Shown in pieces: positions 26,264 through 37,372 of a DNA stretch of 40,684 bases; the stretch's first letter is position 1, and the number at the start of each line of letters is the position of its first letter. Made by a program: the position numbers and the translations under genes. Location of the stretch: assembly GCA_001800605.1 (NCBI GenBank), contig MGVS01000069.1, forward strand, positions 1 through 40,684. The letters run 5' to 3'. The notes under the pieces are model-generated. The model was not told the origin of the DNA. It saw nothing but the letters and a program-made list of their open reading frames with translations, and ran no database searches. Source of the stretch: Elusimicrobia bacterium RIFOXYD2_FULL_34_15. GTDB lineage: Bacteria > Elusimicrobiota > UBA8919.

Positions 26264-27683
26264 AGCTCCACAGATTTATACTTATAAAGACTTTATGTAC
26301 GCTTCGAAGCTGAAATCCCCTCCTACGCCAAGGCTTCGGAGGACAAGAAAGCTACGGTGGGCAGGTGCCGTAGCGAAAATTGAGCTATTAATACACAAAT
26401 TTATATTCTATGGATTTTCGTTTACCCGAAAGATTTGGTCAATAGGACAAAGGCTGGATAAATTAGGCATTTTATTATTTTTGCTATTTACCAGCCAAAC
26501 ATTTGCAGCCAATTTGACTGTTACATTTATTAATGTAGGTCAAATTGGCGATTCTATTTTAATCCAGACGTCGTTAGGCAGGAACATTCTTATTGATGGC
26601 GGGTTTGAATATGCAGGCGAAGAGAATGTTTGTCCGCATCTTATAAAGAAAAAAATAAAAAAATTGGATACCATAGTTCTTACCCATCCGCATGATGACC
26701 ATTGCGGAGGATTGGAATACATATTGAAAAAATTTACAGTTAGCGAGGTTTTGGATACGGGAATAGCTTCGCCTTCTGAGCCATACCGCAATTTTTTATT
26801 GGCGGTAAAGAAAAACGGGGCTAAATATAAAATTGTTTCAATTGGAGATGAATATAATTGGGGCGGTGTAAAAGCGGTTATATTAAATGCTAAAAATGAA
26901 AAATTATACGATAAAGAATCATTTAATAACCATTCTATAGTAATAAAATTAACATACAAAAAAGTTTCATTTTTATTTACCGGTGATATAGAGAGAGAAG
27001 CAGAAGATTTTTTATTATCAAATAATATAAAATCAACGGTTCTAAAAATTCCGCATCATGGGAGCAGTTCATCTTCAACATATAGATTTCTAAAAAAGGT
27101 TAGTCCGCAAGTTGCGGTAATAAGTGTTGGGAATCCGAACGATTATGGTTTTCCTGTTGCAATGAACTTAGAAAAGCTAAAACAATTGGGAATTGAAACA
27201 TATAGAACAGATTTAAACGGCAATATTGAGATAACTTCAGACGGCAAAAAAATATCGGTAAAAACAGAAAGAAAATCTAAAAAAGATAATAGTGTAATAA
27301 ACTCATCTTCCATTGATGAAAATTTTTGGTTTCATCTAGAAAATGGATGGTTTTTGGTTAGGAGCGGAAAATTTAAAAAAGCAATACCAGAATTGGAAGA
27401 AGCAGTTAGAATATTCCCTGGCTTTTCCGATGCACATTCCAAATTAGGATTTGCATACAAAAAAACAAAAAATATATTATTAGCAAAAGAAGAATTTTTA
27501 AAAGCACTTTCCATAGATAGCAATGATTATTATTCTTTAGTTCATCTGGGCTTGATATATAATTCCGAAGGTAATAATAAAGACGCATTGAAATTTTTTA
27601 GAAAAGCACTTGCAAATGAACCATATAATACATATACTAGCTTATTGAAGGAAAAAATCAGGGAAATAGAGAAAAGCAATTAA
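26247..27683 (+). CDS. ComEC-type metallo-beta-lactamase-fold protein with C-terminal TPRs (N-terminal ~45 aa repeat-derived)
   Basis: FINVGQIGDSILIQTSLGRNILIDGG, LTHPHDDHCGGLE, FTGDIE, IPHHGSSSSSTYRFL; true start uncertain, probably downstream of the element. Confidence 0.8.
   Translation: MSQKSEAPQIYTYKDFMYASKLKSPPTPRLRRTRKLRWAGAVAKIELLIHKFIFYGFSFTRKIWSIGQRLDKLGILLFLLFTSQTFAANLTVTFINVGQIGDSILIQTSLGRNILIDGGFEYAGEENVCPHLIKKKIKKLDTIVLTHPHDDHCGGLEYILKKFTVSEVLDTGIASPSEPYRNFLLAVKKNGAKYKIVSIGDEYNWGGVKAVILNAKNEKLYDKESFNNHSIVIKLTYKKVSFLFTGDIEREAEDFLLSNNIKSTVLKIPHHGSSSSSTYRFLKKVSPQVAVISVGNPNDYGFPVAMNLEKLKQLGIETYRTDLNGNIEITSDGKKISVKTERKSKKDNSVINSSSIDENFWFHLENGWFLVRSGKFKKAIPELEEAVRIFPGFSDAHSKLGFAYKKTKNILLAKEEFLKALSIDSNDYYSLVHLGLIYNSEGNNKDALKFFRKALANEPYNTYTSLLKEKIREIEKSN
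26264..26380. repeat. AGCTCCA...CCTACGCC...GCTACGGTGGGCAGG element, copy 1
   Basis: Homologous by eye to 35000-35096; starts directly after TGA of the TPR-LolB gene. Confidence 0.75.
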
Positions 27684-27686
27684 AAA

Positions 27687-27778
27687 TGACACAAAGTGTC
27701 ATCCTGAACCGAAGGTGAAGGATCTCGATTTTAACTACGAGATGCTTCGCCGTATGCTCAGCACGACATAAATGTCGT
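27687..27778. repeat. Palindromic element TGACACAAAGTGTCATCCTGAACCGAAGGTGAAGGATCTCG...CGAGATGCTTCGCCG...ACGACATAAATGTCGT
   Basis: Nested inverted repeats read directly; widely seen TGTCATCCTGA-type intergenic repeat. Confidence 0.75.
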
Positions 27779-34999: not shown

Positions 35000-35096
35000 A
35001 GCTCCATAACTTTACACTTAAGGGAACTTTATTGTTTAGGAGCTGAAGTCCCCGCCTACGCCAAAGCTACGGTGGGCAGGCGCCGAAGCTAAAATA
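35000..35096. repeat. AGCTCCA...CCTACGCC...GCTACGGTGGGCAGG element, copy 2
   Basis: Homologous to 26264-26380; starts directly after TAA of the TPR gene. Confidence 0.75.
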
Positions 35097-35148
35097 GGGC
35101 AATTCACAGGGCGGTATTTAGCGAAGGCGGATGAAGGGGAGAGCTTAT

Positions 35149-36377: not shown

Positions 36378-37217
36378 ATGCAAAAAATAAACTTTGCAAA
36401 AATGTCGGGTAGCGGTAATGATTTTGTTGTATTGGACAATAGAAAAAAAATTGTAAAAAATCTGTCAAATTTTGCTAAAAAATACTGCCATAGAAAGTTT
36501 GGTATTGGTGCTGACGGTATTTTGCTTGTTGAAAATTCTAAAATTGCAGATTTCAAAATGATATATTATAATTCAGATGGTTCGCGCGCGTCTTTTTGCG
36601 GTAATGGAGCAAGATGTATTTCTTTATTTGCATATATTAAAAAGATTGCTCACCAAAAGATGACGTTTGAATCCGATGCCGGCATTATTTCTGCAGAAAT
36701 TAAAAATGACATGAAATGTCATTGCGAGCGATCCGCCAGCTGGCGGAGAGCGTGGCAATCCTATTGTATAAAAATAAAAATGCCATCCCCAAAAGATATA
36801 AAACAAAATATAAAAATCGGAATTGACAAAAAAAATTTGGATGTATCATACATCAACACCGGTGTTCCGCATGTTGTATTATTTATAAACAATATAAAAA
36901 ATATTGATGTAGATAATCTTGGCAGAAAAATAAGATATCACAAGCAATTTCAGCCCCGGGGTGCAAATGCAGATTTTGTAAAAATATTAGGAAAAAATAA
37001 AATTCAGGTAAGGACTTACGAACGGGGTGTTGAAGGTGAAACTCTTGCCTGCGGGACCGGCGTGGTTGCTTCTTCGGTAATATCTATTACAAAAGGCCTT
37101 GTTTTATCGCCGGTAAATGTCTTAACTCATGGTGGAGAAATATTAAAGGTCTATCATGACTGCTGTAATACCTTTTTTGAAGGAAAGGTTTATATAACAT
37201 TCGAAGGCAGAATATAA
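36378..37217 (+). CDS. dapF: Diaminopimelate epimerase carrying an in-frame palindromic-element insertion
   Basis: MSGSGNDFVVLD, CGNGARC, GVEGETLACGTGVVAS; insertion MKCHCERSASWRRAWQS. Confidence 0.93.
   Translation: MQKINFAKMSGSGNDFVVLDNRKKIVKNLSNFAKKYCHRKFGIGADGILLVENSKIADFKMIYYNSDGSRASFCGNGARCISLFAYIKKIAHQKMTFESDAGIISAEIKNDMKCHCERSASWRRAWQSYCIKIKMPSPKDIKQNIKIGIDKKNLDVSYINTGVPHVVLFINNIKNIDVDNLGRKIRYHKQFQPRGANADFVKILGKNKIQVRTYERGVEGETLACGTGVVASSVISITKGLVLSPVNVLTHGGEILKVYHDCCNTFFEGKVYITFEGRI
36707..36762. repeat. Palindromic element inside dapF (TGACATGAAATGTCATTGCGAGCGATCCGCCAGCTGGCGGAGAGCGTGGCAATCC)
   Basis: Contains perfect TCCGCCAGCTGGCGGA palindrome (36732-36747) and TGACAT-GAA-ATGTCA hairpin. 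Confidence 0.85.
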
Positions 37218-37239
37218 TAAAGGCAGGCAAAGGGGTAAC

Positions 37240-37359
37240 CCGCCACTGAATCGTTGGCGAGGTACCTCGCTAGGCGGCTTAAAACTCTTTGAGTTTTAAG
37301 CCAGCGACCCTCCCGCTTCGCCAAAGCGAAGCGAGTCGGGCAGTCGCCTGCGGCGACTG
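37240..37359. repeat. Cluster of four consecutive hairpins/palindromes between dapF and ybaB
   Basis: GCGAGGTACCTCGC 37257-37270; GGCTTAAAACTC-TTT-GAGTTTTAAGCC 37276-37302; CGCTTCGC-CAAA-GCGAAGCG 37314-37333; CAGTCGCC-TGC-GGCGACTG 37341-37359. Confidence 0.85.
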
Positions 37360-37372
37360 GGTAGGAGATTTT

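Follow-up and report, generated by a model that had tools for sequence, protein, structure and literature searches.

A CGTC-type palindromic repeat read in frame within dapF of an Elusimicrobiota bacterium, and other palindromes at the same turn in its relatives

How does a palindromic repeat come to be read in frame inside dapF, the gene of an essential enzyme of core biosynthesis? The question arises in Elusimicrobia bacterium RIFOXYD2_FULL_34_15 (G000 below), within a window of 40,684 nucleotides, the whole stretch of DNA analysed. A sequence-only reading had placed a palindromic in-frame insert at 36707-36762 of this window and likened it to the palindromic elements of Rickettsia. Coordinates and frame are correct, and the insert proves to belong to a broader pattern in this bacterial family. 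The features at the locus, in window positions and with their evidence in brackets, are listed here.

36378..37217, plus strand: dapF, diaminopimelate epimerase, 279 aa, with in-frame insert (ORF, PF01678, TIGR00652, Foldseek)
36597..36599, plus strand: codon of catalytic Cys74, CGNGARC motif, intact (ORF translation, alignment)
36707..36762, plus strand: palindromic insert of 56 nt, lengthening the empty loop by about 17-18 codons (comparison with the empty loops of G003 and G005; low-pLDDT turn)
36707..36721, plus strand: 5' hairpin TGACATgaaATGTCA, 15 nt (sequence, DNA folding, comparison with G001)
36717..36761, plus strand: CGTC-type REP unit with TGTC tag, ATTGC...GCAAT outer stem and CC tail (genome copies; definition in PMC3733652)
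36732..36747, no strand assigned: perfect 16-bp inner palindrome TCCGCCAGCTGGCGGA (sequence and dispersed copies)
37050..37052, plus strand: codon of catalytic Cys225, ACGTG motif, intact (ORF translation, alignment)

The host gene encodes a recognizable DapF. A profile search of the 36378-37217 open reading frame returns PF01678 with E = 5.5e-49, the NCBIfam equivalog TIGR00652 scores 251 bits, the cutoff being 114.65, and Foldseek aligns the model with the solved DapF 8qzy at a TM of 0.87-0.88. As had been claimed from the letters alone, the reading frame is uninterrupted and both cysteine motifs are preserved, including Cys74 and Cys225, the catalytic cysteines of the DapF family. Outside the loop, NG86 estimates give dN 0.10 and dS 0.76, and the resulting dN/dS of about 0.13 indicates that the enzyme is under purifying selection.

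The insert has the DNA sequence TGACATGAAATGTCATTGCGAGCGATCCGCCAGCTGGCGGAGAGCGTGGCAATCCT and encodes (N)DMKCHCERSASWRRAWQS, producing a loop of 22 aa where G003 and G005 have 4 and 5 aa; 17-18 codons are gained on balance. Its residues have no counterpart in these empty-loop relatives and no place in the consensus drawn from 43 homologues in other phyla, in agreement with the earlier view that nothing in DapF corresponds to them. The AlphaFold model, with a mean pLDDT of 93, also bears out the exposed hairpin turn that had been suggested: residues 111-130 drop to a pLDDT of 56-68 between strands 102-109 and 128-135, so that in the model the insert sits exactly in an exposed beta-hairpin turn, as a loop predicted to be disordered.

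At the DNA level, the insert consists of two adjacent hairpins with a folding z of -2.5, equalled by 7 of 200 shuffles, and the REP element has no stop in five of its six frames. An Rfam search found no RNA family at this position. Its parts also occur separately: the inner palindrome TCCGCCAGCTGGCGGA is dispersed by itself, in G001 and G003 too, and the 5' hairpin module TGACATgaaATGTCA precedes many repeats of G007 as well as a REP at window position 27687. The latter is a further CGTC-type REP (TGACACAAAGTGTCATCCTGAACC...GGATCTC), located at a synteny break with the sister species G001. Two other repeat-related observations come from the window. The spacer 3' of dapF (37218-37370) is dense in palindromes, and G001 carries about 4.9 kb of extra DNA there; a 42-bp dispersed repeat occurs at 26348-26389 and 35063-35104, the two copies being 86% identical.

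Dispersal of the palindrome, proposed from the window, is confirmed by the genome. Searched with up to two mismatches, the head motif TGTCATTGCGAGCG is unenriched inside the window (2 matches versus 1.5 expected), so the whole genome is needed to show dispersal; across 2.47 Mb it gives 52 matches versus 3 with the reversed control. Four near-full copies of the dapF element exist elsewhere in the genome (C87:7588, C1:12235, C38:88 and C118:55809), 89-94% identical. A GTC head, an ATTGC...GCAAT stem and a CC or CT tail are common to the copies, whose inner arms vary. These data bear directly on the idea that this is one of DapF's usual variable loops, its palindrome arising from chance or an assembly error. 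Loop length does vary across the family, but the near-identical dispersed copies refute that idea, two separately assembled genomes hold the same insert, and the reversed-pattern controls are near zero, leaving it with next to no probability.

The element agrees in its features with the CGTC-tagged REPs, a superfamily to which R. conorii RPE-4 and RPE-6 also belong (Di Nocera et al. 2013, PMC3733652), and this membership makes the comparison with Rickettsia an apt one. REPs of this kind carry a terminal CGTC (or TGTC/CCTC) tag, a stem opening with complementary A-T and a short tail that stays unpaired and is CCA in most cases; they have an 8-9 bp stem, a 4-5 nt loop and a high dispersed copy number, and form mostly head-to-head dimers (PMC3733652). 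In dapF, the tag is TGTC at 36717, with CGTC, TGTC, GGTC and AGTC in other copies; the stem ATTGC...GCAAT opens with A-T, and the CC tail is followed by T. Copy number is high, reaching 154 in G002. Several head-to-head pairs occur, such as C16:3591/3659, C110:1000/1092 and C72:7574/7642, and the dapF copy is a single unit. That copy departs from the canonical stem and loop, having an outer stem of about 5 bp, an internal loop and the 16-bp inner palindrome; the canonical form is approached more closely by shorter copies, for example GTCATTGCGAGCGTTAGCGAAGCAATCTC. Since some species have CGTC-REP loops of differing length (PMC3733652), the stem and loop dimensions describe the families of that study, not the tag-based definition. 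G003 shows no excess of TGTCATTGCGAGCG-type REP heads, yet has dispersed TCCGCCAGCTGGCGGA.

The sister species G001 carries the same element in its dapF, with 47 of 47 bases identical, while the rest of the gene is about 82% identical and the main aligned syntenic blocks of the two genomes show 71-86% DNA identity. Identical runs of at least 47 nt occur only twice in 35.7 kb of aligned syntenic DNA, the insert being one of them; a second identical run, of 44 nt, lies in the same dapF gene and tempers the 47/47 statistic. Third positions in the insert are identical at 16 of 16 sites versus 67% in the remaining gene, and the residues adjoining the insert differ between the two species. Strong hairpins form at the insert in both, and the loop of the 5' hairpin reads GAA in G000 and TTC in G001, exact reverse complements. 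No other near-full copy of the element was found in the G001 genome, which is about 91% complete. Had a neutral insert been present since the two species separated, it should have diverged, which implies that the insert either postdates the split in both or is under constraint. With two genomes compared, independent recent insertion, transfer and hairpin constraint are all possible.

One contig pair from these genomes stands apart. G000:C20 (L199) and G001:C41 (L248) share a 14,307-bp contig at 100% identity, the genomes being otherwise about 77% identical, which reflects either mis-binning or very recent mobile DNA. An in-frame REP common to DNA methylase ORFs of these two contigs was set aside because of this identity over 14.3 kb.

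Other members of the family fill the same DapF turn differently. G004 has a shorter CGTC REP, GTCATTGCGAGAGCCGACTTGTCGGCTCGTGGCAATCTC; G007 has the palindrome TGTCACCCCGGACTTGTTTCGGGGTCTCA, with 21 matches in its own genome and 0-3 in the others; and G006 has a GTAGC..GCAAAGCGAAGCTTTGC palindrome, two further relatives of which lie within 57 kb of G006 DNA. The sequence in the turn of G002 looks like a degraded version of the G006 palindrome, and G003 and G005 have a short loop. In genus g4, three species (G004, G006 and G007) carry three different palindromes at one turn. In four genomes (G000, G001, G004 and G007), the element head lies at an identical nucleotide offset in dapF, and the 5' hairpin region of G000 and G007 shares 17 of 20 positions. 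Counted by hand, the loop states require a minimum of five changes along the family tree. Close relatives therefore hold the same or other palindromes here, and not the common non-repetitive sequence that would have spoken against an inserted repeat. A named-genome search revealed no further member of this Elusimicrobiota family.

The pattern extends to other conserved genes, where in-frame REPs of two families occur in the relatives. Three species have them in hycI, at the same loop, with one REP in G006 and another in G004 and G007. One RnfC loop (L311-L316) differs between species: G004 has a REP there, G005 what looks like a decayed copy, and both G006 and G007 short tandem repeats. In-frame REPs are also present in coaX of G007 (six extra codons versus G006 and G004), in folC of G004 and G007 (where both loop and orientation differ) and in a Mrp/Nuo antiporter subunit of G007. 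In serA of G004 (26/26; L334/L363) and G005 (24/26; L364), a REP replaces a conserved segment at unchanged length, turning KEILxxAxNL into NVILSEAKNL. In 610 kb of G004, the two families number 11 and 13 REPs, four of them inside conserved genes (dapF, rnfC, serA and folC). Throughout, ORFs with the REP ahead of the likely start, such as L226 and L404, were not treated as genic cases. G000 has in-frame REPs in large, probably secreted proteins as well. Large ORFs of 4360, 1488 and 1082 aa at L208:3579-16658 and L215 contain in-frame REPs, two of them at matching positions of related sequences. Across the genes with in-frame REPs, the encoded peptides include VIASE, CHCER, VILSE and RFFAPLRMT; the repeats are thus read in several frames and in either orientation, which argues against selection for a peptide.

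Selection could still act on the dapF copy itself, by keeping an RNA or DNA hairpin, or the peptide, that slows translation, protects the mRNA or modulates DapF. Such a function would explain the exact conservation within the genus, from the 47/47 identity and the 16/16 third positions (67% elsewhere in dapF) to the rarity of runs this long in 35.7 kb; it would also suit the strong hairpins of both species and a 5' hairpin that is kept though its loop is inverted. The relatives, which hold other palindromes or none at this turn, speak against it, as do the differing frames and orientations of REPs in other genes, the predicted disorder of the loop and the second identical run, of 44 nt, within dapF. 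A functional insert is accordingly unlikely.

A different history, compatible with selfish spread, would have a single insertion in the family ancestor whose palindrome body was later rewritten in place. The head offset common to G000, G001, G004 and G007 favors it, together with the 17 of 20 positions shared by the G000 and G007 5' hairpin regions and the overwriting of serA without length change; the short loops of G003 and G005 do not, nor does the G007 palindrome, which is that species' own enriched repeat. Because the 5' hairpin belongs to many G007 copies, sharing it is no proof of common descent. We give this single-insertion history a real but minority chance.

It is highly probable that the insert is an in-frame copy of the resident CGTC-tagged REP family in a DapF turn, selfish or neutral and filtered by protein structure. 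A copy of the resident REP would have landed in frame in the turn between strands 102-109 and 128-135. REP copies presumably arrive often, and selection would retain the in-frame, stop-free ones at structurally tolerant turns; if only tolerated copies are kept, the same few loops would receive, time and again, copies of the REP family active in the species concerned. The DapF insert peptide probably has no selected role of its own. The 47/47 identity with G001 counts against this reading, as does the survey of Y1 loci, which yielded no mobilizing enzyme. Copying may replace an existing REP body or a short homologous tract; candidate routes are template switching, gene conversion or the action of a transposase on the TGTC tag. 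The equal-length serA overwriting and the common head position in dapF suggest replacement at short homologies as a hypothesis. A tentative extension, which we think somewhat less than even, is that the family's REPs also spread by copying into short homologous or hairpin tracts, swapping bodies in dapF and hycI and overwriting a structured SerA segment, with a few exposed turns of core enzymes serving as standing docking sites for the active repeat of each species.

To our knowledge, CGTC REPs have no known transposase. Y1 transposases are present in eight of the nine REP-rich genomes among 13 scanned, with exceptions both ways in G003 and G008, the latter having REPs and no Y1 match. None of 20 Y1 loci has a dapF-type REP bordering the Y1 gene, and exact heads come no closer than about 1 kb, in L097. 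A Y1 transposase as the REP mover was therefore rejected, being associated with REPs but with these exceptions and no REP flanks. Many Y1 genes of the family (L091-L108) have short inverted repeats on their flanks, GGGGACGGT/ACCGTCCCC being one example.

Three aspects appear new, none being described in the literature searched: the phylum, the turnover at the same site by each species' own repeats, and the overwriting of SerA. A literature search that covered few subscription papers found no CGTC REPs or in-frame REPs in Elusimicrobiota, and a word search of PMC3733652 gave no mention of the phylum. The phylum assignment rests on genomes of the same phylum, which match named Elusimicrobia and Endomicrobia records at 81-97%. 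The sequence-only reading had stressed that the insert lies in an essential enzyme; this host stands, but it is not new in kind, since REPs and RPEs inside metabolic genes are already known. The findings place in-frame REPs in core biosynthetic enzymes of 1.5-3.0 Mb genomes, in a phylum other than that of Rickettsia. Sister species that refill the same turns with different repeats offer a natural experiment on how selfish DNA probes the places where a protein accepts added sequence, and on the way CGTC REPs move.

Among known systems, REPIN/RAYT systems combine GTAG REPs with TnpA-REP. The present genomes likewise contain both short palindromic REPs and Y1 transposases, but the dapF REP carries a TGTC tag, not GTAG, and the inverted repeats that border the Y1 genes are different ones. 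The best-known in-frame REPs are those of Rickettsia, for which reductive evolution was a natural explanation. The likeness lies in a palindromic repeat read in frame within genes of conserved, metabolic function, here dapF and enzymes of the relatives, there including the reported intragenic R. conorii RPE-4 and RPE-6. Compared by description, the two differ in that RPEs occur in Rickettsia as one of its families, whereas the host here belongs to another phylum with genomes of 1.5-3.0 Mb, and its orthologues carry several unrelated palindromes at one site; RPE-1 is longer, and RPE-4 and RPE-6 are CGTC REPs. With CGTC-tagged REPs (PMC3733652), the dapF element shares a TGTC tag at one end, an AT-initial stem, a short CC tail, dispersal and some intragenic copies, with several pairs of its genomic copies lying head to head, but it has a short outer stem, a longer inner arm and its own 16-bp palindrome. 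The closest precedent for the refilled turn is recB of X. campestris and X. oryzae, where related species carry different REPs at roughly one position within a single gene (PMC3733652); that case concerns one gene in two species, whereas dapF, hycI and rnfC extend the pattern across several species here.
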